The translations under genes and the position numbers were made by a program. Shown one piece after another: positions 4,849 through 22,242 of a stretch of 22,242 nucleotides of DNA. Under the pieces are notes generated by a model, which had not been told where the DNA came from, did not search any database, and was given only the letters and a program-made list of their open reading frames with translations. This DNA comes from a virus, in IMG/VR virus record IMGVR_UViG_3300031974_003377, positions 1-22,242 of that record; one strand, written 5' to 3'. The stretch's first letter is position 1. Every line of letters begins with the position of its first letter.

Positions 4849-5490
4849 ATGAGCACCTTAACTCTCTATACCTCTGGCAGTACTGATGAACCAAAAGAAG
4901 TTACCCACACTTGGGATCAAATAAAAGATTGGGCATTAAAAAGCATCGATGAAATTGGATTGTCAGACGAAGATAGAGTGCTTGATGTATTCCCTAATAA
5001 CACTATTGCCCACCACACAATTACCGCCTTTCCTGCGTTTTTAAGCGGCGCACAGTGCTGGAAAACTAACTTTAGTGCATATACCTACCCTGAACTGTTT
5101 AACCGCGTTAAACCGACGTTTATAGCGTTAATACCACGCCATTTAGAACTATTACTAAAGGCAAAAGGCTTTGAAAACTTGGATATGAGTTGCGTCCGTT
5201 ATATGGTTACAGGTAGTTCCAAAATAGAACAAAGTTTCATAGATGCCTTTAGAGAACGTGGTGTCCAAACTGTAGCAAATTGGTATGGAATGACTGAAGT
5301 TGCTCCACCAAAAATGATTGGATATAATACGACACATTTTACAAAGATAGACGACGATGTATGGTTTACTGACGAAGGAGAATGTGTGATAGATAAATTT
5401 TATACAGGCGATATATTTGATGTAGAAACTAAAACATTTTTACATAGGAAAAAAGAAGCAAATGGAAAAACTTGGAAAACTGAAGTTTAG
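4849..5490 (+). CDS. Miniature adenylate-forming (ANL/AMP-binding) domain protein
   Basis: At 213 residues this is far shorter than normal ANL enzymes (about 500-600), yet the core motifs are present in order: the phosphate-binding loop TSGST at 8-12 with K16, YGMTE at 146-150, and TGDIF at 186-190. The N-terminal subdomain before the P-loop and the C-terminal lid with its catalytic lysine are absent. The natural reaction is acyl-AMP formation from a carboxylate and ATP. Whether this core alone can adenylate, or works with a partner, cannot be told. The start is 44 bp after the fibre gene, without a strong ribosome site but with a TAAGTAAGTA leader also found before 3518. The last 29 bp overlap the GNAT-like gene, whose product could be a functional partner. 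Confidence 0.75.
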   Translation: MSTLTLYTSGSTDEPKEVTHTWDQIKDWALKSIDEIGLSDEDRVLDVFPNNTIAHHTITAFPAFLSGAQCWKTNFSAYTYPELFNRVKPTFIALIPRHLELLLKAKGFENLDMSCVRYMVTGSSKIEQSFIDAFRERGVQTVANWYGMTEVAPPKMIGYNTTHFTKIDDDVWFTDEGECVIDKFYTGDIFDVETKTFLHRKKEANGKTWKTEV

Positions 5491-6019
5491 ATTTGCTACT
5501 ATAGAAGATACACATTTAGTAGAACAATTTTGCAAATCGCAAAACTTTAGTAATAACACATCACTTAAAAAAATGAAATGGGAATGGTGCCTTGATGTAG
5601 GTGCTTGGACTATTGCATTAGACGAAGACAAAATTATTAGCATAGCAGGTATACATCCATTGCCAGAAGTAAATTCAGACAGTTACCGTTGTTTGTTTAG
5701 AGGTGCTCAACTTCCTGGTTACACACTCGGTACAGGAAGAGATATTTTTAAAACAGGTATACAGTTAAGACATCTTTTAAATTATCAAATAGATTGGGCA
5801 ATAGAAAAAAACATAAATGCAGAACTATACATTAGCACTAACATAAATGACGATGGCGGCAAAAGTCAACGTATGAATAATATTATGATGCCATTACTTG
5901 CAAAACGTGGTATATGGGAATTAGATAGACAAATAGAACTTTATAATGTTCCACAAAACTTATGGCGTATTGATGTGCTTACTTATATGGAAGAGCGTAG
6001 CCGTTCGCTAAACACCTAA
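5462..6019 (+). CDS. GNAT-like acyltransferase family protein
   Basis: A 185-residue protein opening with a strand-helix pattern (LKFRFATIEDTHLVEQFC) typical of GNAT N-termini. A paired-strand segment around 48-66 (GAWTIALDEDKIISIAGIHP) follows. No clear acetyl-CoA pyrophosphate loop (Q/RxxGxG/A) is seen, although GYTLGTGRD near 87-95 falls in a plausible region, so activity and donor are uncertain. It overlaps the ANL-like gene by 29 bp with AGG upstream as ribosome site, suggesting coupled expression; transfer of an adenylated acyl group is an attractive but unproven link. Its last 41 bp overlap the convergent halogenase gene. Confidence 0.5.
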   Translation: MEKLGKLKFRFATIEDTHLVEQFCKSQNFSNNTSLKKMKWEWCLDVGAWTIALDEDKIISIAGIHPLPEVNSDSYRCLFRGAQLPGYTLGTGRDIFKTGIQLRHLLNYQIDWAIEKNINAELYISTNINDDGGKSQRMNNIMMPLLAKRGIWELDRQIELYNVPQNLWRIDVLTYMEERSRSLNT

Positions 6020-7076
6020 AACTATATTCGTCAAATATAGTAAACGGCTTTTTCTTTATATTAATTTCTTTAACTTCGTTTTTCCAATAATCTGTATTTT
6101 TACTCGTTGCAGTATAATGTAACTCTAAAAATTCTTCTAAGTGTTTTACGATATTACGCCATTGCTTGTTATAAATTTTTTGTTTTCCTACAAGCCTTAC
6201 TAACATTTCAATTTGATATTGAATAAGCCAAATTGCTTGTGCTTCTAAAGGTTCTAAAAATCCTGCACTTAATCCGACGTTTAATATTTTTCCTTGATAT
6301 GGTGTTTCGCAATATTGGCTTTCCCATTCAATTACTCTAAGTTTATCTAATTCAAGATTGTACGGACATTTTTCAATAAATTCTTTCTTAGCACTTTCTA
6401 CTGTTTGATGTTTGTTACTAAACACATACCCGTTACCTATACGATTTTGTAGATAGATATTCCACATCCAGCCATTGCTCATTGCTGTTGTTTCTGTATA
6501 ATATTTTAATTCATTATCATAACTTGGTGCAACTATAGCACAGTTATTTTTTAGTTTAGTTTTTATCATCTGTTTTTGAGGGAACAATTTGCTAAAGCCT
6601 GCACAGTTTATAATTAAATCAGCATCTAAATTATCAATTGTAGACAGTGTTTTGTTTACTAATTTTACACCATTTGGTAGTGCTACTTTATCACGTAACA
6701 TAATGCCAAACTTATTCGCATCTATATGATATGCATGACGCCATTTTTTATTTGGCAACTCATAATTTTCCATCCAACGCATTTGTTCATCATGCTCTGC
6801 TTCGTCAAAACAAAAATGATGGAACCAACTTTCGCCGTGCCAGTTTTTATGTTTAATTGTATACTTACGAACAGCATCACAGTTGTCAAATAAATCTTGT
6901 TCAGTAAGACCTATTTCATTTATAAAATCATATATGCTGGGCAATGTACTTTCACCTACACCTATAATAGGAATATCTTGACTTTGTATTACAGTTATAT
7001 TCCAATCTGTTTTAACACTAAGATAACTTGCAGTCATCCAGCCTGCTGTACCTCCGCCTACTATTGTTACTTTCAT
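5979..7076 (-). CDS. Flavin-dependent tryptophan-halogenase-family protein
   Basis: A 365-residue flavoprotein with GGGTAG (7-12) for FAD binding, the family block GVGESTLP (39-46), a lysine (K71) aligned by me with the catalytic lysine of PrnA/RebH, WMWNI at 203-207 matching WxWxI, and GFLEPLE at 272-278. The usual proline after WxWxI is tyrosine here, and the usual EPLES reads EPLEA. Family members are normally over 500 residues, so the C-terminal part is reduced. Such enzymes use FADH2, O2 and halide to make a hypohalous intermediate and halogenate an electron-rich substrate; a flavin reductase is needed and none is in the window. Cyanophage halogenases of this family are known (VirX1). 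It is last in the - strand oxygenase operon and overlaps the preceding gene by 4 bp. Confidence 0.8.
   Translation of the reverse strand: MKVTIVGGGTAGWMTASYLSVKTDWNITVIQSQDIPIIGVGESTLPSIYDFINEIGLTEQDLFDNCDAVRKYTIKHKNWHGESWFHHFCFDEAEHDEQMRWMENYELPNKKWRHAYHIDANKFGIMLRDKVALPNGVKLVNKTLSTIDNLDADLIINCAGFSKLFPQKQMIKTKLKNNCAIVAPSYDNELKYYTETTAMSNGWMWNIYLQNRIGNGYVFSNKHQTVESAKKEFIEKCPYNLELDKLRVIEWESQYCETPYQGKILNVGLSAGFLEPLEAQAIWLIQYQIEMLVRLVGKQKIYNKQWRNIVKHLEEFLELHYTATSKNTDYWKNEVKEINIKKKPFTIFDEYSFRCLANGYALPYK
5999..6053 (+). terminator. Nested hairpin with T-run at the convergent gene ends
   Basis: An outer 7-bp stem (AGCCGTT 5999-6005 with AACGGCT 6043-6049) encloses a perfect 8-bp inner stem (ACTATATT 6021-6028 with AATATAGT 6034-6041, loop CGTCA). 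A T-rich tract follows directly after the outer stem. It straddles the stop of the GNAT-like gene and lies inside the upstream half of the convergent halogenase gene's 3' end, so it is best read as a + strand terminator. Confidence 0.5.
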
Positions 7077-7777
7077 AATGCTAAAATGTCCTGTATTCGA
7101 CTTTCATCGACCCTTGTTAAAAAATGTGCTCTTTCAGTTTTACCAGTATTTTCTGTTCCATGATAAGCATTAGTATTTAAAATATAAACTTTGCCAACTT
7201 TCATATTATATTTTACTTCTCTATCTTTACCAAAGCAAAATACTGCTTCTTCGTTAGTTTCTAAGGGAATATGCAATTTTTTAACTGTACTATCTTTATG
7301 TGTTTTAATTTCCGCTCCAGGTCCGTGAATAGTAATAATACATTGTTTAAAACTATCTTCTCCTAATAGATCAATTAGTGTATTCATATAGCCATATCTG
7401 TATTGAGGCAATACATTACACTTGTCATAGAATAAAGGATCTAATGTTTCAGGAAACATCTCTTTGTTTGCTTGACTTGGAGGAGGTAACGGCTCGTATT
7501 TTTCAACTGGCCATGCAAGTGTATATCCACTAATAGGTCCACAATAATAACCACAGTATCCTAATTCCATATATTGTTTACTAACTTCAAGTGTAAGTCT
7601 TTCAGGAAAATTATAAAAATCAAAGTATACGTGTTTGAATTTTTCTTTTAATTCAGAATAATAGTTCTTTAGTTGAACAGGATCTAAATCAACATTTAAT
7701 TCTATACAACCCCAAGACTCGTCTTCATATAGCATTTCCATTGTAATATCTTTTGGGTCATAGTTTTTTATAATCAT
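7073..7777 (-). CDS. Fe(II)/2-oxoglutarate oxygenase, Asp/Asn beta-hydroxylase type (A)
   Basis: A 234-residue cupin-type dioxygenase. The iron ligands appear as H160-x-D162 and H206 (in the AYHGTEN stretch), with R216 positioned to bind 2-oxoglutarate. The core between them (KKLHIPLETNEEAVFCFG, then KVYILNTNAYHG) is shared with the products at 7774, 8950 and 9678, so these are paralogues. Family members hydroxylate protein side chains or small molecules using O2 and 2-oxoglutarate; the substrate here is unknown. The N-terminal 140 residues are not shared strongly with the paralogues and probably set specificity. ATGA-type 4-bp overlaps with both neighbours show translational coupling. Confidence 0.8.
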   Translation of the reverse strand: MIIKNYDPKDITMEMLYEDESWGCIELNVDLDPVQLKNYYSELKEKFKHVYFDFYNFPERLTLEVSKQYMELGYCGYYCGPISGYTLAWPVEKYEPLPPPSQANKEMFPETLDPLFYDKCNVLPQYRYGYMNTLIDLLGEDSFKQCIITIHGPGAEIKTHKDSTVKKLHIPLETNEEAVFCFGKDREVKYNMKVGKVYILNTNAYHGTENTGKTERAHFLTRVDESRIQDILAL

Positions 7778-8364
7778 ATTACTTCCTCACTATATTTAAG
7801 TATTTCAGTCTCTTTGTCTTTAGGAATTTTAAAAAACAAATGTACTCGATCTCTTTCACCGTCATTTAACGTGCCATGATCGTTTGAAGTATTAACTAAT
7901 ATCATACTACCGTCTGCAGGAAGAACATATCTTCTGTCAGGATAAAATCTAAAAAATGCTTGATCATTTGTCATCACAGGTATATGTACTTTTAAATAGT
8001 CATCTGTATCACTATGAAAATTAATCATAGTTCCTGGTGGGTGTACAACTAAACTAAACTGATGAGCAAAAGGAAATTTGTCTTGTAATTTTCTTGCTAA
8101 TCCAAACATTAATTTAGTATCTTTGTACTCTTTCTTTTCATTTTTTGTAACATTATAAGGCGGACAAGGAATTGTCAAATCTTCTAAGTTACTTTGTAAC
8201 GCCCAACCATGTACACCGTCAAGTATATGTCCTCCAACACCTTCGTCAGCATTGTTGTCCCAATGCCAACACATATCTGTGTGTTGTGTTTGCAAGTCAA
8301 TATAAAACAAGCGTAATTCGTTTATATTAACTTTAGTCTTTAATACTTTTATGTCGTGAATCAT
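7774..8364 (-). CDS. Fe(II)/2-oxoglutarate oxygenase, Asp/Asn beta-hydroxylase type (B)
   Basis: The shortest of the tandem paralogues at 196 residues. The metal triad is H117-x-D119 (NFHSDTDD) and H163 (NDHGTLN), and R173 is the likely 2OG-binding arginine. The segment KVHIPVMTNDQAFFRF is the same core strand pair seen in paralogue A. No signal peptide or membrane segment is visible, so it should act in the cytoplasm. The start overlaps the end of the SDR gene by 32 bp and the stop overlaps paralogue A by 4 bp. Confidence 0.8.
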   Translation of the reverse strand: MIHDIKVLKTKVNINELRLFYIDLQTQHTDMCWHWDNNADEGVGGHILDGVHGWALQSNLEDLTIPCPPYNVTKNEKKEYKDTKLMFGLARKLQDKFPFAHQFSLVVHPPGTMINFHSDTDDYLKVHIPVMTNDQAFFRFYPDRRYVLPADGSMILVNTSNDHGTLNDGERDRVHLFFKIPKDKETEILKYSEEVI

Positions 8365-8953
8365 AGTACTCTACTACTTTCTTAATTTTTTCTTTCTTAC
8401 CTTCATAATGATAACTTTCAGTAAAAAATTTAAAGTCTATATTAGACATTATAGGATTTTTAAACCAAAAGTCTAAAATGTCATTTAATTCTATTTGCTT
8501 TAATCCTGCTACATCATAATTAGGATCTACAGTTTCTGTTATATTTAGATGTAATAACTTTGTCTTTGTATCTAATGTTTCTAACGGTAACCATTTACAT
8601 CTTTCTTTTAATCTATGTTTTACTTCGGCATAGTTACTATGGTTTTCATATTTTTGCGGTGCTTCATGAAAATCACCTGCAATACTTCCTACGCAAATTA
8701 AATATGGTACATAACTATACACATCTTCTAATAATTTTATTTGATAGTCTTTTACACAAGCACTGTTTACAAATACATCTGCAGATTGTGCAATTTTAAC
8801 TATTTCGTCGTATTGCTTATCTAAATCATATCCTGTTTCTCTACTTAATTGTATTACTTCATGCTTAGAAAAGTAATCATGTAACCATTCTTGCATCACG
8901 TGATGCCCTGGTTTGATTATACTTTTCTTTCCGCCAGTAATTACAATTTTCAT
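8333..8953 (-). CDS. Short-chain dehydrogenase/reductase-like protein
   Basis: A 206-residue Rossmann protein. It opens MKIVITGGKK, where the family's TGxxxGxG dinucleotide loop is altered, and has NSA at 63-65 in place of NNAG. It keeps an active-site-like S90 (VGSIAGD) with Y108 and K112 (YAEVK) in the SDR spacing. It would be expected to oxidise or reduce an alcohol/carbonyl, or epimerise a sugar nucleotide, with NAD(P). At 206 residues it is near the short end of the family, and the changed glycine loop leaves cofactor choice uncertain. It sits between two pairs of oxygenases, so it may act on their hydroxylated product; this is inferred from position only. It has a 4-bp overlap with the upstream gene. 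Confidence 0.65.
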   Translation of the reverse strand: MKIVITGGKKSIIKPGHHVMQEWLHDYFSKHEVIQLSRETGYDLDKQYDEIVKIAQSADVFVNSACVKDYQIKLLEDVYSYVPYLICVGSIAGDFHEAPQKYENHSNYAEVKHRLKERCKWLPLETLDTKTKLLHLNITETVDPNYDVAGLKQIELNDILDFWFKNPIMSNIDFKFFTESYHYEGKKEKIKKVVEYYDSRHKSIKD

Positions 8954-9714
8954 AACGCAATTTCTCCATTGGCTAACTTTAGTAAAGTTTCCATGTTTGG
9001 TTTAGTTTGTAAATGTGTTCTATTGTTTTTACTGTTATTAATCGTTCCATGAGGTACAGCGGCATTAATTAAGTACGCTTTACCTGTTTCGAGATTATAA
9101 CTTCTATCTAATTTTTCTCCATATAGAAATAAAGCATCTGGATCGCTTTCTACAGGAATATGTAATCGTTGTACATTTGGACCGTCAATATGTTTTCCTA
9201 ATTCTGCATTAGGCTGATGCTTTCTGATGCTTGTATCACGCCAAACATTTTCTCCTAATACTTCATACATCTGCTGAAAGTATCCAAACTTAAATTTTTC
9301 CTGCACTGCTTTTTCTCTGTCTTCTTTTATTTCAGGATACAGGTCTTCTCTACCTGCCCATTTCGGAGTACAAGGAATATCCTTTTCACAATACCAACTT
9401 ACTTCCATAACTAATATTTCTGCCGGTTTATCAAATTGTTCTTTGATATATTTTATTATGTGATACCCTTCATCGTGTACCCCTCTACCTTCTTGGCCTA
9501 CTACCCCTTCAAATGCTTTTTCAATATTTTTTAAATGATATTTTTCTTTAAGATATTGTTCTTGTCTCCAACTAAAAAATAAATTACTATACTGTTCTTC
9601 AACTTGTTGATACCAAGACTGTAACTTAGAAACATTTATTTTCCAAGGTAATTCAATTATATCCCATTTATCGCTGTCTATATATTCGTATGAGTAATCC
9701 ATTCTTCTGTCCAT
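8950..9714 (-). CDS. Fe(II)/2-oxoglutarate oxygenase, Asp/Asn beta-hydroxylase type (C)
   Basis: A 254-residue oxygenase with H175-x-D177 (GKHIDGP), H222 (VPHGTIN) and R232 as the iron and 2OG ligands. The core QRLHIPVESDPDALFLYG followed by GKAYLINAAVPHG matches paralogues A, B and D. It has the longest N-terminal region of the set, rich in Tyr, Trp and Glu, which may form the substrate site. The start at 9714 gives a 37-bp overlap with paralogue D; a second ATG four codons on is also possible. It is coupled to the SDR gene by a 4-bp overlap. Confidence 0.8.
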   Translation of the reverse strand: MDRRMDYSYEYIDSDKWDIIELPWKINVSKLQSWYQQVEEQYSNLFFSWRQEQYLKEKYHLKNIEKAFEGVVGQEGRGVHDEGYHIIKYIKEQFDKPAEILVMEVSWYCEKDIPCTPKWAGREDLYPEIKEDREKAVQEKFKFGYFQQMYEVLGENVWRDTSIRKHQPNAELGKHIDGPNVQRLHIPVESDPDALFLYGEKLDRSYNLETGKAYLINAAVPHGTINNSKNNRTHLQTKPNMETLLKLANGEIAL

Positions 9715-10355
9715 ACCTTTCCGTATAAATGTATTCTATTTGTTAATCCTTTGTTTTCCACACTGTGCGGAATAGTTGTGTTTACAAGATAAGCATATCC
9801 TGGCTCCATATGAAATTCTTCATCACCTATAATCCAGTTACTATCTTCATTCGTATGAATAGGAATGTGTACTCTTATTTTATCAGGACTGTCTTGGTGT
9901 GTAATTAATTTTGTTCCCGGAGTATGTATTGTTACTAACCACTTTTTACTTCTAATTGGTAATTGTTTTACAAGTTCTAATCCATACCCTGTAAAACATT
10001 TACGTGGATTTAGTTCGTCATTATCATTATCACGGTATTCTTCTTTAGCACAACCTTGTTCAAATGGCTTAGGTCCAGGTTCATCACTATTCCAACAAAG
10101 TGTATAGTATGCCGCATCATCTGGCAAGTAATGTCCTGTCTTTGCTTCTGGGTCGCTAATAGGAAATTGCCACACATGATTATTTTCACCGATGATAAAT
10201 TTCCAATCAGAAAAATTTTTTTCTAAATCTTCATACCATTTATGAATTTTTTCTACATCAACTTCAAACAACTTTTTTACTTTAAAGCCTAAATCAACTG
10301 GCTCGTGTGTTTCAATATAGCGTTTGAAATCTTGGGTGTGTTGTTGCATTTCCAT
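9678..10355 (-). CDS. Fe(II)/2-oxoglutarate oxygenase, Asp/Asn beta-hydroxylase type (D)
   Basis: A 225-residue oxygenase with H153-x-D155 (THQDSPD), H197 (IPHSVEN) and R207. The shared core reads KIRVHIPIHTNEDSNWIIG and YAYLVNTTIPH. The upstream part carries LNPRKCF and a CWNSDEPGPKPF stretch, comparable in position to the proline-rich loop in paralogue A (PLPPPSQ near 97-102), so these loops may mark the same substrate-side structure. It starts inside the preceding unrecognised gene with a 44-bp overlap; the two in-frame ATGs are only one codon apart. Confidence 0.8.
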   Translation of the reverse strand: MEMQQHTQDFKRYIETHEPVDLGFKVKKLFEVDVEKIHKWYEDLEKNFSDWKFIIGENNHVWQFPISDPEAKTGHYLPDDAAYYTLCWNSDEPGPKPFEQGCAKEEYRDNDNDELNPRKCFTGYGLELVKQLPIRSKKWLVTIHTPGTKLITHQDSPDKIRVHIPIHTNEDSNWIIGDEEFHMEPGYAYLVNTTIPHSVENKGLTNRIHLYGKVWTEEWITHTNI

Positions 10356-11781
10356 TTCTTACTCTTGTATTCATATCCATTGCTACGTAATCGTGGCCAT
10401 ATAAAACTAAATCTTCTGGAATTAGTTTCTCAAAAGTTTTCCATTTTTCTTCTAAAACTTCAGGCTCTACGTTCCAATGTAGCATTTCACTGGACCATAT
10501 ATTTGTAGTCCATAGTACTTTTGTACCATGTACTGTATTTATTTTGTCAAAAAGTTGGTTAGGATCAGATACAATATCTATCACATAAAACTGATGTTTA
10601 AGTTTTTTATATCTATCCCAAAGTCTTTGAAAGGCAAGACTTCCGCCAAACTCTTTTAGTTCTTGTTCCCAGAACTGTTTATAATTTCCTCTATACGTAC
10701 TTGCAAAATTAAAATGTAAATCATTTTCGAGTAACCATTTATCTAAGTCGTACCCGTCCCAAGTTTCTAATAATTTCTTTTTGTAGTTTATACTTGCTTC
10801 ACACCAATCAAAGTAGTGTACTGTTGTTCCATTATTAAACCCGTTTGCATTTAATATGGCAAGAGGCTTAAAGCCGGCGGCCGCTGTAAACAAATGATCA
10901 ATATGTTTACCATTAGTTCTTACTCCTTCTCCTGAAAGTGTTTCTGTGTTAAAAGCATACACTCTATCTTTTTCAATTTCTTCTTGATATCCTAACTTAC
11001 GTATCCATGCTTTTTGACTTTGATTCAAACCTTCTTCTTTTGTTTTATCAAGCCATGCAATTTCTAATTGATTTGATTGATTATACGGATATAAAAATAC
11101 TTTGCAGTCACGCATATCGTTGTCTAAATTATCAATTTGTATATTGTTTTTTAATGCAATATCAATCCAGTTACTTCCGTCTGCTGTTACAGAATATTCT
11201 TGTTGACCTTCTTGCTGTTTAATCCATGCAGGTGTGTAATCACTATGTACTGTCTCCTCACTATATTCAAAGTTTTGTAACATAGGTTTTCTATCTTGAT
11301 ACACTCCTATTTCATCAAAAGAAGGTTTTCCTAATTCTATCCACTTAGAAAGATTAACAAACAAATACTGTCGATGTAAGCCAGGATAAGAACCTGTCGT
11401 AAGATAATGTTGTTTTTTCTTATCCATAATATGTCCTACTACAAAAAACTGCGGATTCTTTTCAGCATATTCTACACTTTTCTGCACTAAACTTGGTCCA
11501 CGGAATAACAACAAACCTTGACAAGCAATCATTGCATAATCTTTTTCTTTTTTAATTGCTTCTTCAAGAATAGTTTCTACTTTATTATGAAACCCAACAT
11601 AAGAACACATACCCATCTTAATCATACGGTTAATATAAAAGTATGTCATATCGAAGGTACGTTTTTGTACAAATTTATTTGGAATGTCTCTTGAAATATC
11701 TAAAATGCCAACAGCAACTTTATTATCAATGTTTAGATTCTCGTAGTATCTATCTACAGTAATACTGTTCCAGTCTTTCAT
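10312..11781 (-). CDS. Large unrecognised protein, possibly two-domain transferase-like
   Basis: A 489-residue protein that I cannot place. The N-terminal third alternates strands and helices (DYAMIACQGLLLFRG, then FFVVGHIMD and GLHRQYLFVNLSKW), loosely like nucleotide-sugar or other transferase folds but without a clear DxD. A later segment (AGFKPLAILNANGFNNG followed by VHYFDWCEASINYKK) looks like a Rossmann strand-loop-strand and could be methyltransferase-related; VLWTTNIWSSEM near 440 would then be a late strand. These are fold impressions, not family matches. It sits 1 bp from the first oxygenase gene and overlaps the next by 44 bp, so it belongs to the oxygenase operon. No signal peptide or transmembrane helix is visible. 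Confidence 0.6.
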   Translation of the reverse strand: MKDWNSITVDRYYENLNIDNKVAVGILDISRDIPNKFVQKRTFDMTYFYINRMIKMGMCSYVGFHNKVETILEEAIKKEKDYAMIACQGLLLFRGPSLVQKSVEYAEKNPQFFVVGHIMDKKKQHYLTTGSYPGLHRQYLFVNLSKWIELGKPSFDEIGVYQDRKPMLQNFEYSEETVHSDYTPAWIKQQEGQQEYSVTADGSNWIDIALKNNIQIDNLDNDMRDCKVFLYPYNQSNQLEIAWLDKTKEEGLNQSQKAWIRKLGYQEEIEKDRVYAFNTETLSGEGVRTNGKHIDHLFTAAAGFKPLAILNANGFNNGTTVHYFDWCEASINYKKKLLETWDGYDLDKWLLENDLHFNFASTYRGNYKQFWEQELKEFGGSLAFQRLWDRYKKLKHQFYVIDIVSDPNQLFDKINTVHGTKVLWTTNIWSSEMLHWNVEPEVLEEKWKTFEKLIPEDLVLYGHDYVAMDMNTRVRNGNATTHPRFQTLY

Positions 11782-11782
11782 A

Positions 11783-12475
11783 CTAACCCCTATTAGTATA
11801 GTAACTTTGTCTTAACACATAGAAAAAATCTCTAATGCGTCTACCTAATTCATAATGTATAATCATATGAATTCTTGGTTCGTCACTATTATTCCATACA
11901 GCGTGAGTATTTGAAATGTCCATTAAAAATGCACTTCCTTGATCAGTGAAGGGTACAATACCATGTTCTTTAAATAAAAATTTACAACCTTCTGGATTAT
12001 TCAAACTAATATTACAAACACTTAAACGTTTTTCTTCGTCGGGTCTATCTTGGTGTGGAAGAATATATCCGCCTGGTTCAAGTAACATAAAACGAACACG
12101 GTTTAAATATTCTGCTGGCCATACATCTGTCAAAAACTTTTTAGTTACAGGACATTTTTCTGCTACCCAAGTCCAATCAAGTTGTTTAATAACATCACTA
12201 CGTTCTCCGTATTGATCTAAACTTTGTGTATCCTCGTCTAAACCGTGCAGTGTTAAACTTTTCCAACCTTTACCATAATCTGTTCTATGATCTTTAAAGT
12301 AATCTAATAGAGATTCTGCCTCTGTGTGCATTTCTTTCCATGGCTGATTATGTAAAGCACTCAATTCAAAGCAAGGCCAACCACTTTCCATTACTACCCA
12401 TTTTGGATCAAATTGTTCTGGATACTTTACTTCAATTTGTTTTGCGTCTTTAAAAAGGCTATCTAACTGTGTCAT
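11783..12475 (-). CDS. Aspartyl/asparaginyl beta-hydroxylase-like 2OG oxygenase (E), operon leader
   Basis: A 230-residue oxygenase and the first gene of the left-going operon. H141-x-D143 (LPHQDRPD), H191 (SNTHAVWNNSDEPRIH) and R201 form a complete iron/2OG set. The wording around them (GGYILPHQDRP, then GSAFLMDISNTHAVWNN) is closer to classical Asp/Asn beta-hydroxylases than the four tandem paralogues are, so it is probably a separate branch rather than a recent duplicate. The ATG faces a 69-bp divergent spacer with candidate promoters; no strong ribosome site precedes it. Confidence 0.8.
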   Translation of the reverse strand: MTQLDSLFKDAKQIEVKYPEQFDPKWVVMESGWPCFELSALHNQPWKEMHTEAESLLDYFKDHRTDYGKGWKSLTLHGLDEDTQSLDQYGERSDVIKQLDWTWVAEKCPVTKKFLTDVWPAEYLNRVRFMLLEPGGYILPHQDRPDEEKRLSVCNISLNNPEGCKFLFKEHGIVPFTDQGSAFLMDISNTHAVWNNSDEPRIHMIIHYELGRRIRDFFYVLRQSYYTNRG

Positions 12476-12489
12476 GTTTGTATTTTTCT

Positions 12490-12519
12490 ATTAAACTATC
12501 TGTTAAATATACTTATCAA
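12490..12519 (-). promoter_or_regulatory. Possible sigma70-like promoter for the left-going oxygenase operon
   Basis: On the - strand TTGATA (12519-12514) and TTTAAT (12495-12490) are each one base from consensus and 18 bp apart. They would start transcription about 8 nt before the ATG at 12475, an unusually short leader, so the call is weak. Confidence 0.3.
12502..12509 (+). promoter_or_regulatory. Candidate late-type promoter element for the right-going radical SAM operon
   Basis: GTTAAATA has the TAAATA core of T4-type late promoters and ends 36 nt before the ATG at 12545, the same distance as the element before the fibre-like gene. The 11-mer TTAAATATACT (12503-12513) is identical to 547-557 in the leader of the VWA gene. 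Confidence 0.45.
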
Positions 12520-15222: not shown

Positions 15223-16354
15223 AGCATTTGAAGATTTTTACAAAGAAGCAACAATTAAACATTTATTATTAGAACAACATAATGATGTTTTAATATCTCC
15301 TCCTTTTGCAACTGACAAATGTAAAGACTATAGCAAAATTGCTGTATATGAAAACAATAAAATAAGATTTATTAATTTAGATTTACCTCCTGCAACAAGT
15401 AAAACTAATGCTGTTGCTAAAGTAAAAGACAGTAGTTACTTAATTCCTTATGCTATATGGGACGATTATAATATTGTTGTACAACTTACTGATAATAAAG
15501 TAGACTATCACGAATTAAACAAAAAAGGAAAAGGACAATTTTACAGTGTAGCATCAAACGGCGATAAGGCTTGTAGTTTTCCTTTAGGATACGAAGATAC
15601 ACAATATTTAATTTACATTGACGATAGTGTAAAAACTGTTCCTTTAAAAAATGTGCCTACTAAAGCACACATGGGTACAGTTTATTGTAATGACACATTT
15701 TGGAGTATGCCAAGATCAGAAACTAATGATTATAATAACCTTGTAAGTTATGACGGCAAAGAATTTACTTCTTATACATTACCTAAAATTAACAATGTAA
15801 GTAGAAAATATAGTGATATAGTTGTAAAAGAAAACACACTTTATAGTTTACCATTTGGAGAAACAGCAGGGTTAAAAACAGTAATAGAGTTTAATACAGA
15901 CTCTAAAGAATTTAAACAACATGAATTAGATGTTCCTGACTATGCTAAAAAATTTAACAGTCAAGTTCTTATAGAAGATAAAATTGTTGGATTGCCTTAC
16001 GGTGACGAAGAACATAACGATAGTAACTATGGTGTAATTTTTGATACTACAACAAAAACAAGTAAAGCATTTGATATTGAATTAGGATTTGGCGGCAAAT
16101 ATAGATATCGTAGCGGAATACAATATAAAGGCTATGCTATATTTTTACCAAGCGGTTCTCCGTACTGTCCTATTATACGTGTTGATACTTCGGGTAACTT
16201 TATAACTAAACTTTACGATGAATTACTTTTTGGAAGACCGATTATTTTTAAAGATAAGTTATATTCTATTGTTTATGATATAAAAACAAATAGATCAAGT
16301 ATAGTAGAAATAAACGAAAATTTAGGCTTGCTTCATAAGGTAGATATCACTTAA
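15215..16354 (+). CDS. Beta-propeller protein, sister copy 2
   Basis: A 379-residue protein with the same repeat design as its upstream neighbour: turns SPPFATD, IPYAIWD, FPLGYED, MPRSETND, LPFGETAG, LPYGDEE, LPSGSP and a degenerate last blade. Several blades share the K/R-K-Y/F spacing (for example NVSRKYSDIVVKENTLYSLP) found in copy 1 (TSRKYFSHTVAKNGKIFFPP), which indicates tandem duplication followed by strong divergence. An N-terminal 25-residue helical lead is not part of the propeller. No signal peptide or membrane segment is seen. The 3' end overlaps the convergent radical SAM gene by 33 bp. Confidence 0.7.
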   Translation: MYKAFEDFYKEATIKHLLLEQHNDVLISPPFATDKCKDYSKIAVYENNKIRFINLDLPPATSKTNAVAKVKDSSYLIPYAIWDDYNIVVQLTDNKVDYHELNKKGKGQFYSVASNGDKACSFPLGYEDTQYLIYIDDSVKTVPLKNVPTKAHMGTVYCNDTFWSMPRSETNDYNNLVSYDGKEFTSYTLPKINNVSRKYSDIVVKENTLYSLPFGETAGLKTVIEFNTDSKEFKQHELDVPDYAKKFNSQVLIEDKIVGLPYGDEEHNDSNYGVIFDTTTKTSKAFDIELGFGGKYRYRSGIQYKGYAIFLPSGSPYCPIIRVDTSGNFITKLYDELLFGRPIIFKDKLYSIVYDIKTNRSSIVEINENLGLLHKVDIT

Positions 16355-17224
16355 ACAAGCACACACTGTTTTTCCACAAGTAATAGTTTCTGTTGGTAAA
16401 TTATAATCTTTTAAATCGCCAATCGGGCCACCTTGCTCACATTCACTTCTAAATATTTTTCCGTACATATCAATTTTAATCATGTGTAACCCTGCCCAGC
16501 ACTTCCAACCCTTATGATTATTAAGTTCCTTAACAATTAGATCATTTGCTGTAATAGGTTGTTCATTATATAGTATATCGCCTCTGTGTAAATGTTCGTC
16601 ATTTAATTTTCTAAAATAAGGCCATTCAGAAATAATTTTTTGTTGTTCTTCTGTATAGTTTGAAACTTCATTAGTAACATAATCTAAACTTGTTTTATCA
16701 ACAATTACTTTTGGCCAAATTGCAAGTCTTGTTGTATCATTATACATTCTTTTTGCTATTGCTACTTGTTCATCGAATTGATCTGGAACCATCATTAAGT
16801 TAATTGCAGTTTCGCAATATACTTTATTCGCTACGTCAATAAAATGTTGAATGTCTGCATATTCTGGATGGTAACTTATGATCATTCCATCAGTATATTG
16901 ACTTATTGTTTTATAATATTCTACAGTTCTACTACCATTAGTAATAAAACTAAAAGCATGACCTTCATCTTTTACTAACTTTGCCATATCAACAAAGTGT
17001 TTCCAGAACGTAGGTTCACCTCCTGTAATTCTATAACAGATTTTCTTTCCTGGAATTTTAAAATTTTTAATGAAATTGCTTACAGTTTCCCAGTCTGGTT
17101 GTCCGCTTGATCCGTTATGTAAAAAATCTGGACAATAGGAACAGCGATAGTTACACTTGTTACTTAATGTCCAACTAACAAGGAACCAGTCTTCTTTCTT
17201 AGGGTCTGCATAAGTTATTTTCAT
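16322..17224 (-). CDS. Radical SAM protein with C-terminal twitch/SPASM-like cysteines
   Basis: A 300-residue enzyme with CNYRCSYC (C24, C28, C31) and TGGEP (67-71). Its C-terminal part has cysteines C242, C262, C283, C288 and C290, with a GWKCWAG and IKIDMYGKIFRSEC context that fits a SPASM/twitch auxiliary cluster. It resembles the product at 20758-21720 in both the core and the tail (both have a YTEEQ...II segment and a GWKCxxG entry), so the two are paralogues. It is the last gene of the left-going operon from the right edge and overlaps the preceding oxygenase gene by 4 bp. Confidence 0.85.
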   Translation of the reverse strand: MKITYADPKKEDWFLVSWTLSNKCNYRCSYCPDFLHNGSSGQPDWETVSNFIKNFKIPGKKICYRITGGEPTFWKHFVDMAKLVKDEGHAFSFITNGSRTVEYYKTISQYTDGMIISYHPEYADIQHFIDVANKVYCETAINLMMVPDQFDEQVAIAKRMYNDTTRLAIWPKVIVDKTSLDYVTNEVSNYTEEQQKIISEWPYFRKLNDEHLHRGDILYNEQPITANDLIVKELNNHKGWKCWAGLHMIKIDMYGKIFRSECEQGGPIGDLKDYNLPTETITCGKTVCACLSDIYLMKQA

Positions 17225-17871
17225 TCTGTCATGCTATGCTTAATAATTAAATCGTGTGTGCGTTCATTTAGTTTAACTGTTAATATAAGAGCATATAGTC
17301 CATCACTAAAACTAAACACACTGTGATCTTTTTGAAAATTTATAAAATACAAATAACCTGGATCAGGATACATAGGTTTGCCATCAAGCATATGAACAAA
17401 GTTTTCAGGTTTACATTTTCCGAATACACATAATAATCTAAAGTACTCTGGTCCTACTCCTGGAAAATCTCTATGTGGCGGAAAAAATCCTCCTTGATCC
17501 ACTCTAAGTAAATGTACTCTACCAATGTCTGGTGAAAAGACATCTACTAAATTTGCAAAATCTGGAATTTGTTTATATACTTCTGTTGGAACAGTAAAGT
17601 TTTCCTCTTTCATTTCAACATCGTGGTAACGTTGCATATAACCAAAACTGTTTAAATGATAGTTGTCCATTACATCGCCTGTATGACTTGTAATAGGTAA
17701 ACCCCATCTGTTATTATGCGAATCTTTCTTTTTATTATAAGGACACCAATTATCTTGAAATTGTGTAAGTTGTTCTTGAACTTTATGTTCGTCTATCTTT
17801 AATTTTAACTTAACAGTATCACCGAGATTAGTTAGACTGTTCCATAGTAATGCTCTTTTTTCTTTATCCAT
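17221..17871 (-). CDS. 2OG oxygenase-like protein (F) lacking the usual arginine
   Basis: A 216-residue protein with H133-x-D135 (FFPPHRDFP) and H183 (DHSVFSF), the same iron-ligand spacing as Asp/Asn beta-hydroxylase-like oxygenases. After the distal histidine the chain runs SDGLYALILTVK, with no arginine at the position that carries it in the other five oxygenases; K200 is the nearest basic residue. It may bind 2-oxoglutarate differently or use another cosubstrate, so the activity call is tentative. It lies between two radical SAM genes (8-bp overlap upstream, 4-bp downstream), a local pairing of oxygen- and radical-based chemistry. Confidence 0.65.
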   Translation of the reverse strand: MDKEKRALLWNSLTNLGDTVKLKLKIDEHKVQEQLTQFQDNWCPYNKKKDSHNNRWGLPITSHTGDVMDNYHLNSFGYMQRYHDVEMKEENFTVPTEVYKQIPDFANLVDVFSPDIGRVHLLRVDQGGFFPPHRDFPGVGPEYFRLLCVFGKCKPENFVHMLDGKPMYPDPGYLYFINFQKDHSVFSFSDGLYALILTVKLNERTHDLIIKHSMTE

Positions 17872-19171
17872 TATACACTGACTCCAATTCTGGAAACACT
17901 TCTACAAAATTTTGTTTCCGTGTTTTATCGTTTATTTGTAGGTATTGTTTTAAAGCAGGTAACTTATTGCTCCAATCTTCAGCGTTCATGTATTCAACAA
18001 GACCTTGCCATCGTTGTCTACCATACGGATTAACATTAAATTCAAAATCACGTAAAAAATGTGTTGCAAAATTAGTTATCTTTGTGCTTACTTTATCTTT
18101 AATATCTTGAGGTAATACTCTTACATTCATATGACTTGGCAAGTAAACAAGATGCAACCCTATTACACCTGCACCGTATGGTGCTTTATTAATCTTTTTA
18201 TAATTTTGTTCTAACTTCCATTCTGCTAAGTCAACTATATGATGAACGTTTAATGCTTGTACAGCACAAGCAATATTAACAATTATATTATCGGGTGTGT
18301 CATCTAATATTTTTAAGTTGTTCTCGATTTCAGAAAATTTGCTTGGAAATCTAATATAATCGTTTCTTTCATTTATTGCATCTATGCTAAAATTAAATTT
18401 TACTTGTTTAAATTTTGCCCACAAACTTAACAACTTTTCATTTATATCTGTACCATTTGAATTATAACGTAAAACACAATTTTTTGCATGACCTTCAGCA
18501 ACCATAAATTCTAATATAGAATAATGCTCTGGAATCATTAATGGTTCGCCACCTGCAAAATACAACTCTTTAATATGTTGTGCTTGGCTTTTCATTGTGT
18601 CAATGAAACTTCCTTTTTTATACCAAGTATAATCAAATGAAGGATCCCAACTTTGATCTTGGATAAGTTGCTTATTTGTATACTGCGGATATTGTAGTTT
18701 CCAATCTTTAATCCAACTTGAACTATCGTGCGGAGAACACATTACACATTTTAGATTACATATATTACCTAATCGTAAATCAAAATAAGGTATGTTTACA
18801 GGTAAACTTCCATCATCTTTTGTTTGCTCTACAATAGTGTCAATATCTAAACGCTCTTTCCAAACTTCTGTTTCCCAGTTACGTTTGCTTTTTATTCCTT
18901 TAGACTCTTCTTCAAAACACTTACGACAACTTTCAGGAATTTTATTGTTCAGCATTTGCAACCTTGTCCTACGCATATGTTCGCTATTCCACACTTCTTC
19001 AATTGTATGGTCACGAACGTTCATTGCAATACCGTCTTTTTTTACAAGTCCTGCTGTTTTGTCATCATTAACACCTGCACCCGAAGCATTAGCAGTACAA
19101 CAAACTCTAACGTCACCATTAGGTCGTGTTGCTAAATGTATCCACGGCAAAGGGCAAAATGTTTTACTCAT
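17864..19171 (-). CDS. Twitch-domain radical SAM protein (N_twi_rSAM type), second copy
   Basis: A 435-residue protein starting FCPLPWIHL with C6, C24/C25, C82 and C85 for an N-terminal auxiliary cluster, then CNLKCVMC (C138, C142, C145) and AGGEP (206-210). The segment LRYNSNGTDIN around 240 is the radical SAM strand that contacts SAM. It is the longer relative of the product at 12545-13579, with an insert between the core motifs (about 146-200) and a longer C-terminal region rich in Lys and Asn that could hold the substrate. It overlaps its neighbours by 8 bp on each side. The substrate is unknown. Confidence 0.85.
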   Translation of the reverse strand: MSKTFCPLPWIHLATRPNGDVRVCCTANASGAGVNDDKTAGLVKKDGIAMNVRDHTIEEVWNSEHMRRTRLQMLNNKIPESCRKCFEEESKGIKSKRNWETEVWKERLDIDTIVEQTKDDGSLPVNIPYFDLRLGNICNLKCVMCSPHDSSSWIKDWKLQYPQYTNKQLIQDQSWDPSFDYTWYKKGSFIDTMKSQAQHIKELYFAGGEPLMIPEHYSILEFMVAEGHAKNCVLRYNSNGTDINEKLLSLWAKFKQVKFNFSIDAINERNDYIRFPSKFSEIENNLKILDDTPDNIIVNIACAVQALNVHHIVDLAEWKLEQNYKKINKAPYGAGVIGLHLVYLPSHMNVRVLPQDIKDKVSTKITNFATHFLRDFEFNVNPYGRQRWQGLVEYMNAEDWSNKLPALKQYLQINDKTRKQNFVEVFPELESVYNG

Positions 19172-20162
19172 GTTCTATTCTTTCAAACTGCTTGTTAAGT
19201 TTATCAAAGGTTCCGCATTGTTTACTGCATTCTTTTAAACCTGTTGTTGTCCAGCAACTACTAATTTTATTAAAAAAGTTTAATAAAAATATTTCTTGCA
19301 TAGTATTCTTATGTAGATTAGGATATTCTTTTATTTTTGTCATGTAATCAATTCTACTATAACTATGCTGTGGTAACCATTCTAAGTCTAACCAACAACA
19401 AGGACTAACATTACCATTAGCACTAACATAGATTTGACTATCTTGCTTTGCTTTGCAATTAATAGTTGGTAAAATTTCCTGTTGTGCTTTTTTAGCAGGT
19501 TCTATCATTTCAAGACTTTTCTGTGACGGTAACAATGTATGTGTAACATTATAGTCATCATCAATAACATCTAACTTACCATCTTTAAATCTTGTTGTGT
19601 GTTTAATACTAAATCCTTTAAAACCAAGTTCTTTACTCATTTGTTCACAAGTATCTACTTGATGTTCGTTATGTTTGAATACTAACATATCCCAACGTGC
19701 ATCTCCGCCTGCATGAATAAAATGTGTAGCATTGTTTATAATTTTATCCCAATCTGTATTAATCCTGTATAATGCATGAGTATCTTTTAATCCGTCGATG
19801 CCGAAAACAACTTTTACATTTAAACTTGCAAGTTCTTGCCACCACTCTTTTGATCTACCGCTTCCGTTAGTGTGCATTTGTAGTGACATACCTGGATTAG
19901 TTTCATGTAGATATCTAAAAATTTCAAGAGTGTCTTTAGCAACAATAGGATCTCCTAAGTTACCACACATATTCAAAAACTTTAATTGACGAACAAAGTC
20001 TCTTGGAAACCAATTAACAAACGTGCCGAGATCAATTTCATCTAAAGATAAACTATCTAACAACGGGCCTCCTTGAAGCCTACGTGGACACATAGGACAA
20101 CGTGCTTGACATTTACTTGTTACTTCAAGATGAATAGATGTTATATCTTTGTATTCGTACAT
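19164..20162 (-). CDS. Radical SAM/SPASM protein with GNLGDP in place of GGEP
   Basis: A 332-residue enzyme with CQARCPMC (C18, C22, C25) for the SAM cluster. The usual GGEP loop reads MCGNLGDP (65-72), a variant I have seen in some SPASM proteins. The C-terminal SPASM-type cysteines are C236, C255/C256, C303, C312 and C316, in a context with YVSANGNVSPCCW typical of the domain. SPASM enzymes frequently act on peptides or proteins, though sugar-directed ones exist. Its start codon shares one base with the stop of the methyltransferase gene, so the two are translationally coupled. Confidence 0.85.
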   Translation of the reverse strand: MYEYKDITSIHLEVTSKCQARCPMCPRRLQGGPLLDSLSLDEIDLGTFVNWFPRDFVRQLKFLNMCGNLGDPIVAKDTLEIFRYLHETNPGMSLQMHTNGSGRSKEWWQELASLNVKVVFGIDGLKDTHALYRINTDWDKIINNATHFIHAGGDARWDMLVFKHNEHQVDTCEQMSKELGFKGFSIKHTTRFKDGKLDVIDDDYNVTHTLLPSQKSLEMIEPAKKAQQEILPTINCKAKQDSQIYVSANGNVSPCCWLDLEWLPQHSYSRIDYMTKIKEYPNLHKNTMQEIFLLNFFNKISSCWTTTGLKECSKQCGTFDKLNKQFERIEHE

Positions 20163-20761
20163 TATTTTATTCCTGATATCATATACCTTGTATACTTAGA
20201 CAATTTAATTTCCTCTACATCATAATCTTTTGCGTCTACAGATTCAGCAAGTTCACCTGCACTGTTTACACAATTAATATGTTCTTCAAGTTCCGAATAA
20301 TTGTTGCTTTGCATAACATACATAGTACCTTGAGGTATGTTATCAAACCATTGTTTCAAGTCTTCTTTTGTTAAATGTTCACAACTTGTATTAATTACAA
20401 TGTCTGCACTGTACTTATCTGTACACATATTGCCTGTCCTTGCAGTAAATCTTCCTTGCATTTCTTGATTTTTATTCATTGTATATGCTGTGGATTCACA
20501 ACTTGGATCAATATCTACAGACTCGATGTGTTTAATACGAAGATGACTATTAAATAATAAACTTGCTAACACACCGTTCCAACCTCCGTGAATAATAATA
20601 GAATATTCTTTTCTGTAATCGCATTTATATTCTAACATTTTTACCAAGGCTTCTTTACTACGTAATTGACCTTTCCAGAAACTTTCAAGTGTACGATCTC
20701 TATCATCGCTGTTACGAATCGCGTCCATCCAAAATTTAATATCTTCAATATCTATTTTCAT
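20162..20761 (-). CDS. Class I SAM-dependent methyltransferase-like protein
   Basis: A 199-residue Rossmann-like protein. The SAM-binding loop appears as IIIHGGWNGVLASLLF (about 55-70), followed by a strand ending in VDIDPS (82-87) that would hold the ribose hydroxyls. ADIVINTSCEHL (119-130) is the post-II strand where the family often has a catalytic loop. The first glycine-rich motif is shifted from the textbook E/DxGxGxG pattern, so the substrate class cannot be assigned. It is flanked by radical SAM genes with 1- and 4-bp overlaps, and could methylate or help activate their substrate. Confidence 0.7.
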   Translation of the reverse strand: MKIDIEDIKFWMDAIRNSDDRDRTLESFWKGQLRSKEALVKMLEYKCDYRKEYSIIIHGGWNGVLASLLFNSHLRIKHIESVDIDPSCESTAYTMNKNQEMQGRFTARTGNMCTDKYSADIVINTSCEHLTKEDLKQWFDNIPQGTMYVMQSNNYSELEEHINCVNSAGELAESVDAKDYDVEEIKLSKYTRYMISGIK

Positions 20762-21720
20762 ATTTTTTCTTTCGGTATTTTGCTATCTGCACTACTAACA
20801 CAGGTTGGTGTAATACAGGGCATTGGTTTATCAAAAAGTTTGAACCCTTCAGTGAGTGTGCCTAATGGCTCATCGTGACAACTGTATGCACGTTTCACTT
20901 CGTTGCCTCTAATGATACAACTCTGGTATCCACTGTTGCATTTCCAACCTTTGAATTTGTTAAAACCAAAAGCATTAAATCTTTCTGCTTGGTCAATTTC
21001 ATATTCTACTCCTTGAGCATCTTGTAACCTAACTTGTGGTACATTCTGTTCACTTTCGTTTTGTAATATGATTTTTTGCTCTTCCGTGTATCCGTCCACC
21101 ACAAAAGAAGCAGTAGGATCGGACTGAGGCTTAAGAGTAACATGAAGACCCCTGCTAATAAACCTATTACATCTATCATAATATTCCTCCCAATGTTCAG
21201 GTACCATTACCTGATTGATCGTTACAAGGACATCATTGTCTTGTAAATATAAAAGTTTGTCACCAAACTCTTTTTCATCGGCAAACTCCGCATGGAAACT
21301 TGCTGTAATACTTCTTCTATCCATTACGTGGGTAATATCTAACCAACGTTTCCACCAAGTCTTTGCAGGACTACAGTTACTTGTCATATGAATACTTAAA
21401 TATTTGCTTTTATAATCTTCATAATGTTCTATTAATTTTAATAAATCTTTATATGCTGTAGGTTCTCCACCGCTGAAACTAAAATGAAACTTATCATATC
21501 CATTGGCTATTGCTTGTTTCTTTATTTCATCAATAGTATTTTTGTAGGTTTCTAAATTGTAGTAGTCTGGCTTGTCTGTATTTGCATATGGCCAACAATA
21601 TGAACATTTATAATTACAAAAACGACCAATGATCCAACTTACAGCAAATAGATTGCTGTCCAGCATTGTCTTTTGCCCAAGTTTAACTATGTTATTAAAT
21701 GGAATCTTCGTAGTCATCAA
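20758..21720 (-). CDS. Radical SAM protein with C-terminal twitch/SPASM-like cysteines, paralogue of 16322-17224
   Basis: A 320-residue enzyme with CNYKCSYC (C35, C39, C42), SGGEP (83-87) and C-terminal cysteines C261, C268, C281, C302 and C307. The GYTEEQKIILQ segment and GWKCNSG entry match the product at 16322-17224, though overall identity looks low. The first 30 residues before the cluster are an N-terminal extension relative to its paralogue. The ATG at 21720 gives a 26-bp overlap with the preceding gene; a second ATG follows immediately. The substrate is unknown. Confidence 0.85.
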   Translation of the reverse strand: MMTTKIPFNNIVKLGQKTMLDSNLFAVSWIIGRFCNYKCSYCWPYANTDKPDYYNLETYKNTIDEIKKQAIANGYDKFHFSFSGGEPTAYKDLLKLIEHYEDYKSKYLSIHMTSNCSPAKTWWKRWLDITHVMDRRSITASFHAEFADEKEFGDKLLYLQDNDVLVTINQVMVPEHWEEYYDRCNRFISRGLHVTLKPQSDPTASFVVDGYTEEQKIILQNESEQNVPQVRLQDAQGVEYEIDQAERFNAFGFNKFKGWKCNSGYQSCIIRGNEVKRAYSCHDEPLGTLTEGFKLFDKPMPCITPTCVSSADSKIPKEKI

Positions 21721-22242
21721 ACTGCTCCTTCAACCATTTAAAATCATTTATTTTATAAAGCATATCTTTATCGTCTTTGTGTGCTTCGCCAAAATATCTA
21801 CCACACTGTGCACCATGGATTGCATACTTGCCATGCTCTCTATCAGCACCAACTGTACACCATGTATCTAATCTTTTTTCTGTTTCTTCGTCTACTTGAC
21901 CTTTAATTATTTTACTTGAAAGTTTTGCACATTCTCTAAATCCACTTTTCCATGTACTCCAAGGATCAGAGTTGAATGAAGTAATATTTGATATTTCATC
22001 TACTGCTTTAAACTTATTACTGATACTTGTAGTCATGTCAGGTACGGTGATGTCCATGTTTAGTGTGAGTGTGCGAGGAAGAAGTTTAACACCGCCGTAC
22101 CCGTATTCCAAGTCGTTTATAGGATTTATACTTCTCCATACATGGACTGTATCTAAATCCCACTCGGAAACCTCATAGTCAAAGTTGAAGTCAAGTAGTT
22201 CAGCATCTCCGTCAACTACCCAAAACATTTTTGTAAAGCATT
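21695..22242 (-). CDS. Glycosyltransferase-like protein, 5' end cut by window edge
   Basis: The frame is open through the right edge of the window: codons before the ATG at 22228 continue as C-F-T-K, so this is the C-terminal part of a longer protein (at least 182 residues visible). FWVVDGDAELLDF (2-14 from the internal Met) looks like the DxD-bearing strand of a GT-A-type glycosyltransferase and is followed by a YGYGGVKLLPR segment. I recall this combination from marine phage proteins. A nucleotide-sugar glycosyltransferase role is therefore plausible but rests on a short motif. The rest is helical with two Trp-containing segments. It is upstream in the left-going radical SAM operon (26-bp overlap with the next gene). 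Confidence 0.5.
   Translation of the reverse strand, partial: CFTKMFWVVDGDAELLDFNFDYEVSEWDLDTVHVWRSINPINDLEYGYGGVKLLPRTLTLNMDITVPDMTTSISNKFKAVDEISNITSFNSDPWSTWKSGFRECAKLSSKIIKGQVDEETEKRLDTWCTVGADREHGKYAIHGAQCGRYFGEAHKDDKDMLYKINDFKWLKEQFDDYEDSI

Follow-up and report, generated by a model that had tools for sequence, protein, structure and literature searches.

On what would a phage use six 2-oxoglutarate (2OG) oxygenases and five radical S-adenosylmethionine (rSAM) enzymes that are encoded directly beside a fibre gene? This question is raised by the IMG/VR virus record IMGVR_UViG_3300031974_003377, which was analysed over its entire length of 22,242 bp (the window). A tailoring-enzyme island occupies positions 4849-22242 of the window, and about half of the island lies beyond the end of the record. 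In addition to the oxygenases (OG1 to OG6) and the rSAM enzymes (RS1 to RS5), it encodes a flavin-dependent halogenase, a mini AMP-binding protein (AMP), a mini kinase-like protein (KIN), two beta-propeller-like proteins (KEL1 and KEL2), a conserved protein of 489 aa (o489) and several accessory proteins. Our results indicate that the island is almost certainly a real, functional and co-travelling module, and that the tip of the neighbouring fibre is part of the unit that travels.

Co-segregation of the island with the fibre gene

The island genes are tightly packed, with overlaps of 1-44 nt and a largest gap of 69 nt. Four strand blocks were counted instead of the three described in the first-pass annotation of this DNA: fibre-AMP-GNAT on the plus strand, halogenase to OG5 on the minus strand, RS1 to KEL2 on the plus strand, and RS2 to the contig end on the minus strand. 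The gene order was kept across tens of IMG/VR records. Between the window and locus L023, the proportion of synonymous differences (pS) was ~0.01-0.08 and that of nonsynonymous differences (pN) 0-0.012 (26 synonymous and 13 nonsynonymous changes; pN/pS ~0.1). The small number of amino-acid changes per synonymous change indicates that the genes are under purifying selection. Because the genes overlap or are tightly packed, keep their order in relatives and show a low pN relative to pS, we regard them as more than a chance assembly.

To describe the composition of the island, we used a set of 33 dereplicated full-length o489 loci. KIN, RS1, RS2, OG5 and o489 were present in all 33. KEL1, KEL2, AMP, OG2 and OG4 behaved as an all-or-none cassette, occurring together in 25 loci and being jointly absent from the other 8; OG1 nearly tracked this cassette (24 loci), and the halogenase was found in 19 loci, all of them KEL-positive. 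The Fisher p values for the co-occurrence of cassette genes (7e-8) ignore relatedness, which is taken into account in the tree analysis below. The same fibre gene stood beside the island in 26 of the 33 loci, as well as in close halogenase relatives with contigs of sufficient length; the loci without a detected fibre were +/-10 kb cut-outs of divergent relatives. Moreover, in 16 large records, 6-11 rSAM genes and 1-6 PF05118 (oxygenase family) genes clustered in one region, barring occasional outliers such as an rSAM gene at 97 kb in the relative G006. The scattered, unassociated genes that the first-pass annotation had named as the pattern that would speak against a common pathway were thus not what we found.

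On the backbone tree, which was built from concatenated flank genes, the state of the cassette (present or absent) underwent six or more changes, compared with only two on the trees of o489, OG5, RS1 and RS2 and three on those of KIN and RS3. The locus closest to the window in its flank genes (L190, 90%) is cassette-free and has TauD, aminotransferase and PP-loop genes instead. The many changes on the backbone tree and the few changes on the island-gene trees indicate that phages with different backbones exchange the island largely in one piece. Since the core genes move with the island, the all-or-none pattern by itself is no proof of a direct functional link between the KEL proteins and the oxygenases.

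We then compared gene trees over 19 shared taxa. Cassette state required 5 changes on the tree of the VWA flank gene, 6 on that of o2519 and 5-6 on that of o2190 (shuffle mean ~6.3 for these trees), and 4 on that of o3130. On the tree of the whole fibre, 2 changes were sufficient, and none of 2000 shuffles gave a value as low. When the fibre was divided, its N-terminal 120 aa required 5 changes (p 0.18) and resembled the backbone, whereas the part from residue 200 onward required 2 changes (0 of 2000 shuffles as low) and resembled the island. The exchange boundary therefore lies inside the fibre gene, with the tip on the side of the island. By these sequence comparisons, the island and the fibre tip are swapped as one unit between phages. 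The check proposed in the first-pass annotation, namely whether the whole set stays together beside fibre genes, thus came out positive, with the refinement that island type follows the C-terminal part of the fibre, whereas the genes next to the fibre on its other side do not share this pattern.

The fibre gene itself (3518..4804, plus strand) encodes a fibre or receptor-binding-like protein with an Mtd_N adapter domain (PF18454, E 5.9e-9), and 44 nt separate it from the AMP gene.

Late promoter motif upstream of the fibre gene

The sequence CATAAATA at 3475..3482 on the plus strand, ~40 nt ahead of the fibre start, is a T4-type late promoter motif. The motif was found upstream of the fibre in all of 8 genomes, as at 3475 in the window. 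In the 268-kb relative G001, ATAAATA was depleted genome-wide (54 observed vs 116 expected), and 41 of the 54 copies preceded a gene start by no more than 90 nt. Ten long motif-led genes outside the G001 island were searched, and seven of them matched virion families, namely sheath, tube (two), head-tail adaptor, baseplate wedge, and fibre-connector or virion structural families. The distribution of ATAAATA in G001 is that of a T4-type late promoter. Divergent pairs of the motif were also present inside the islands of G001, G010 and G012. That the motif is common to the fibre and to virion genes speaks for a role of the island late in infection and in connection with the virion.

The motif NATAAATA (G001, L103-L116; position 3475 in the window) can also serve as a simple marker of late genes in this clade of jumbo phages. 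A second element, the conserved 15-bp sequence ATAAGTATATTTAAC (12502..12516, minus strand), lies between the divergently oriented OG5 and RS1, in their promoter region. It occurs once in G001 and once in the examined part of G004, in each case just upstream of OG5, and is absent from G003 and G014.

Predicted enzymes and associated proteins

All six oxygenases proposed in the first-pass annotation were recovered. OG1 (7073..7777; PF05118, the Asp/Arg hydroxylase family, E 1.2e-9), OG2 (7774..8364; E 9.8e-9), OG3 (8950..9714; E 4.6e-5), OG4 (9678..10355; E 6.2e-12) and OG5 (11783..12475; E 8.8e-14), all on the minus strand, exceeded the curated cut-off of PF05118 and keep the HxD..H..R motif. 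The divergent OG6 (17221..17871, minus strand) had no Pfam match and was placed by HHalign to OG5 (E 1.4e-6); it reads HRD..H and has no clear distal Arg. HxD...H is kept in all six oxygenases. A relative of OG6 in G010 (33% identical) matched PF05118 over the cut-off. The nearest PDB relatives of the oxygenases were beta-hydroxylase, cis-4-proline hydroxylase and AspH, which act on Asp, Asn or Pro residues or on amino acids. These relatives suggest that the oxygenases may hydroxylate amino acids or side chains.

The five rSAM enzymes were likewise confirmed, with PF04055 over the cut-off and an intact CX3CX2C motif in all five. RS1 (12545..13579, plus strand) and RS3 (17864..19171, minus strand) are of the N-terminal twitch type, passing the 170-bit cut-off of NF033640 with 213.6 and 424.5 bits, respectively. 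RS2 (16322..17224; PF04055 E 6.6e-12), RS4 (19164..20162; E 1.9e-8; SPASM-like C-terminus) and RS5 (20758..21720; E 1.9e-12), all on the minus strand, did not pass this cut-off. RS3 has at least 187 relatives in IMG/VR and shows weak similarity to the peptide maturase SkfB. Prokaryotic viperin (pVip) was considered as an identity and rejected: the best score was 49 bits (RS2) against an NCBIfam cut-off of 180, and the PADLOC match (53.9 bits) was confined to the generic N-terminal half of rSAM enzymes.

The flavin halogenase and the mini-adenylation protein of the first-pass annotation both held up. The halogenase (5979..7076, minus strand) matched PF04820 with E 7.5e-70 (236 bits against a curated cut-off of 21), and its best PDB relatives included Trp-5-halogenase (E 6e-41) and the cyanophage enzyme VirX1 (PDB 6qgm; phmmer E 6.6e-38), which has the same fold family. 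The catalytic Lys (K79 of PrnA/RebH) and the Glu region of the EPLE motif align with both enzymes. However, the protein is a short form of 365 aa, compared with about 511-531 aa (531 aa in VirX1), and lacks the C-terminal part. The WxWxIP motif is not kept but reads WMWNIY, with Tyr replacing Pro, and halogenating activity is therefore uncertain. The AMP protein (4849..5490, plus strand; 213 aa) matched PF00501 (E 6e-21) at profile positions 168-328 of 384. This short form, without the N- and C-terminal domains, is kept in relatives (213-224 aa).

Four further genes of the first-pass annotation are present, with labels that drew weak or no Pfam support. KIN (13545..14021, plus strand) has the motifs HGDxxxxN and IDWD and matched APH with E 4.9e-4, under the Pfam cut-off. 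The GNAT-like protein (5462..6019, plus strand), a conserved neighbour whose label was taken over from that annotation, the SDR-like Rossmann protein (8333..8953, minus strand; 6 of the 33 loci) and the methyltransferase-like protein (20162..20761, minus strand; a conserved block member) had no Pfam match.

Four genes had been left unnamed and were added here, namely the two beta-propellers, o489 and a truncated glycosyltransferase-like protein. KEL1 (13984..15222, plus strand) is a beta-propeller-like repeat protein that matched the Kelch model with E 2.3e-4, under the cut-off; KEL2 (15215..16354, plus strand), a divergent paralogue that aligns to KEL1 at ~20%, always accompanies it. The core protein o489 (10312..11781, minus strand) has about 100 IMG/VR relatives, and a pattern-based scan found no relative in the bacterial and archaeal genomes of GTDB. 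Its model (predicted local distance difference test, pLDDT, 82) has a weakly glycosyltransferase-like fold: GT-A matches were weak and glycosyltransferases dominated the weak PDB list, in which the best fold matches had E >= 4e-3 and none was under 1e-3. The last gene (21695..22242, minus strand), which is cut by the contig end, encodes a GT-A glycosyltransferase-like protein with an invariant DxD motif and a length of ~228 aa in relatives. Along with rSAM enzymes, a 2OG oxygenase, KIN and o489, this protein forms the conserved core that is found between the tail-fibre genes. The model of one relative was GT-A-like (pLDDT 92.5), and its top Foldseek matches were glycosyltransferases (E ~5e-5, TM ~0.4). 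In G004 (L132:18190-19863), a version of 558 aa carries extra N-terminal repeats of a related motif. In isolate phages, no relatives of OG4, o489, the DxD protein, KEL1, AMP or RS5 were found.

Complete islands in larger relatives

In the relatives G001, G003, G004, G006, G010, G012 and G014, the complete island spans ~30-40 kb. It is bordered on one side by Collar-domain and repeat-type fibres and on the other side by the Mtd_N fibre, followed by the VWA and ATPase genes. The sister islands add two glycosyltransferase-like genes, a paralogue of the DxD protein with its own rSAM, UDP-sugar dehydrogenase, DegT and class III aminotransferases, TauD oxygenase, a PP-loop protein, HAD phosphatase, nucleotidyltransferase, a DAHP/KDO8P-synthase family protein, uroporphyrinogen decarboxylase (URO-D), porphobilinogen deaminase, a B12-binding rSAM and a phosphatase-like protein. 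An amidinotransferase-like gene was present in G003 (L125:13260-14228) and G006 (57421-58389), with none in the window. The two border glycosyltransferases, SGNH hydrolases and the amidinotransferase were named by reading the sequence, the amidinotransferase also by a profile match described below.

Several single observations were made in these records. The DAHP/KDO8P-synthase, URO-D and porphobilinogen deaminase genes lie in or beside the islands of G010 (L137:665-1438, L137:2433-3374) and G012 (L135:7325-8161). In G014 (L119-L120, record 45658-61107), an open frame of 5,149 aa lies next to the fibre genes of the far island border. A small fibre-like protein without a Pfam match is encoded within the tailoring genes of G001 (161435-162013; L111:1435-2013) and might be an additional virion substrate. 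The distant relative G017 (260,148-bp record) has a second cluster of four rSAM genes at 142-147 kb, away from its main island.

Comparison with known phage systems

Campylobacter phages CP220 and CPt10 (Firehammervirus) carry an rSAM module that was called interchangeable in 2010; in CP220 it comprises five rSAM genes, an amidinotransferase and two nucleotide-diphospho-sugar transferases, located downstream of baseplate/PAAR genes (PMC2853527). The present island resembles this module in having at least five clustered rSAM genes and in its en bloc exchange. Furthermore, the amidinotransferase of G003-type sister islands matched that of CP220 (E 5.7e-23), and the RS4 profile matched a CP220 rSAM (E 4.7e-20). 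In contrast, recognised 2OG oxygenases, propellers and a mini-AMP protein are lacking from the annotated CP220 module, the window has no amidinotransferase, and the transferases of the island are not profile-homologous to those of CP220. Co-inheritance with a fibre has not been shown for the CP220 module. The CP220-related phage CP21 has a halogenase, which lies outside any rSAM cluster.

In a fibre-associated cluster of T4-like cyanophages and pelagiphages (Synechococcus phage Sf-CH11 and HTVC008M, respectively), a halogenase is flanked by several 2OG oxygenases near large structural or neck genes, and our halogenase profile matched these enzymes (E 8e-68 and 1.5e-57, respectively). However, the 2OG enzymes there belong to other families and gave no profile match, and the stretches inspected contained no rSAM cluster, propellers or o489. 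In Vibrio phage K566, a jumbo phage, several rSAM genes of the twitch type are clustered (E 2.4e-26 for the RS1 profile), in a stretch that, unlike the island, has no annotated halogenase, 2OG oxygenase or fibre. No paper joining tryptophan halogenase, radical SAM and cyanophage was found in the literature collection searched.

The island thus joins the rSAM theme of CP220 and the 2OG/halogenase theme of cyanophages in another phage clade, and ties together what had been two scattered oddities. What is new compared with these precedents is the propellers, the mini-enzymes and the demonstrable co-inheritance with a fibre tip.

Possible substrates of the tailoring enzymes

The first-pass annotation had proposed a pathway acting on a virion protein, a host surface glycan or a secreted small molecule. 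The virion-related role is supported by the fibre co-segregation and the late motif, a secreted small molecule appears less likely, and the virion substrate is what we infer. The reading that we put forward, which is plausible though short of probable, is that the island may be a late-expressed tailoring locus of uncultured aquatic jumbo myoviruses that decorates tail-tip or fibre proteins, with the virion or adhesin as substrate. The enzymes would hydroxylate, halogenate, methylate or otherwise alter side chains, or attached sugars, on co-produced tail-tip proteins; the likeliest substrates would be the fibre and the co-inherited KEL propellers, and hydroxyl groups could serve as handles for glycosyltransferases. 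A swap of the island would then give the adhesin a different surface chemistry, comparable to the serotype changes brought about by O-antigen loci. In a more specific version, which is possible if somewhat unlikely, the locus would be a "tail-tip serotype locus" in which the receptor-binding end of the fibre is exchanged as one unit with the large set of enzymes for C-H functionalisation and glycosylation. Every phage type would then carry its own decoration on the adhesins (hydroxylated, halogenated, rSAM-modified, glycosylated), which would set or shield host recognition.

If tail-tip proteins are the substrate, the adhesins would not be plain polypeptides, and host range and receptor binding might rest on installed chemistry that is missed by sequence-based prediction. 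The old question of why marine phages have 2OG oxygenases beside fibre genes becomes testable with this locus, which would also be a large untapped source of protein- and glycan-tailoring rSAM, 2OG and halogenating enzymes.

Several points weigh against decoration of tail-tip proteins. Neither a substrate site nor a precursor is visible in the sequence, and the divergent region between OG5 and RS1 of the window has no late motif. The fibre and the island adjoin, so that their co-segregation could be simple linkage. Gene composition and fibre identity were not significantly correlated (partial Mantel 0.15, p 0.094), in a test that is coarser than the tree-based one. The sugar-nucleotide genes of relatives (UDP-sugar dehydrogenase, DAHP/KDO8P-synthase and nucleotidyltransferase) would equally fit glycan or envelope synthesis, and PF05118 also includes lipid hydroxylases such as the lipid A hydroxylase LpxO.

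The last two points favour the main rival, namely that the island acts late in infection on the host envelope (LPS, capsule or lipid A) and remodels it, perhaps as a barrier to superinfection or to keep released virions from sticking to debris. The glycosyltransferase-like, aminotransferase and HAD phosphatase genes of sister islands are in line with it as well. However, the island genes inspected included no recognisable polymerase, flippase or other membrane protein, and the fibre C-terminus is part of the exchange unit. To our knowledge, moreover, neither halogenases nor twitch rSAM enzymes are known as envelope enzymes. We consider this rival unlikely.

Production of a small molecule, or of a modified peptide resembling the ribosomally synthesized and post-translationally modified peptides (RiPPs), that acts on the host or on competitors is quite improbable. 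It would account for the rSAM relatives of peptide maturases (a weak match to SkfB), the AMP-binding protein, the halogenase and the methyltransferase-like protein. However, the island part of the window has no gap >70 nt and hence no room for a precursor peptide, which might nevertheless be encoded elsewhere, neither a carrier protein nor an exporter was seen, the AMP protein is without its terminal domains, and the module stays tied to fibre genes.

A role in the general metabolism of the infected cell has been proposed for cyanophages (2-oxoglutarate/nitrogen modulation; PMC3037559) and for CP220 (metabolic fitness; PMC2853527), and URO-D and porphobilinogen deaminase in sister islands would agree with it, but the diversity of the genes, the exchange pattern, the fibre linkage and the late promoter are unlike housekeeping and make it very unlikely here. 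Hypermodification of phage DNA is the least credible of all, since no Tet/JBP oxygenase exceeded the cut-off in 8 records, thymidylate synthase was found in only 1 of the 8, the oxygenases are of the Asp/Pro hydroxylase type and the genes are located among tail genes, although phage glycosyltransferases with tailoring enzymes can modify bases (Pyle et al. 2024, as cited in PMC12619734).

Phage affiliation and flanking genes

At the DNA level, the whole window had no match among 50,697 isolate phage records. The capsid protein of G001 was most similar to those of the jumbo phages Phosso (71%), Vibrio 2.275.O (69%) and PA5oct (67%), and records of relatives reach 356 kb. From these protein similarities, the phage groups with jumbo myoviruses and not with T4-like cyanophages. 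The T4-like setting with single 2OG oxygenases that the first-pass annotation had drawn on thus does not apply; moreover, T4-like cyanophages often carry several such enzymes (PMC3037559). The moraphage lineage (PMC12619734) was weighed as the clade and set aside; that paper does not mention rSAM enzymes, oxygenases or a halogenase. A host assignment from the URO-D gene of a sister island was uninformative, with matches of 28-44% to unrelated bacteria.

The record starts inside a gene for an AAA ATPase, of which the 3' part is present (1..489, plus strand; phrog_1297, E 1.6e-23; 83-97% in relatives). It is followed by the VWA/metallopeptidase-like gene (591..1895, plus strand), which matched phrog_1314 (E 4e-116; labelled 'HNH endonuclease' in PHROGs) and whose best isolate matches were again jumbo phages, PA5oct (44%) and Phosso (42%).

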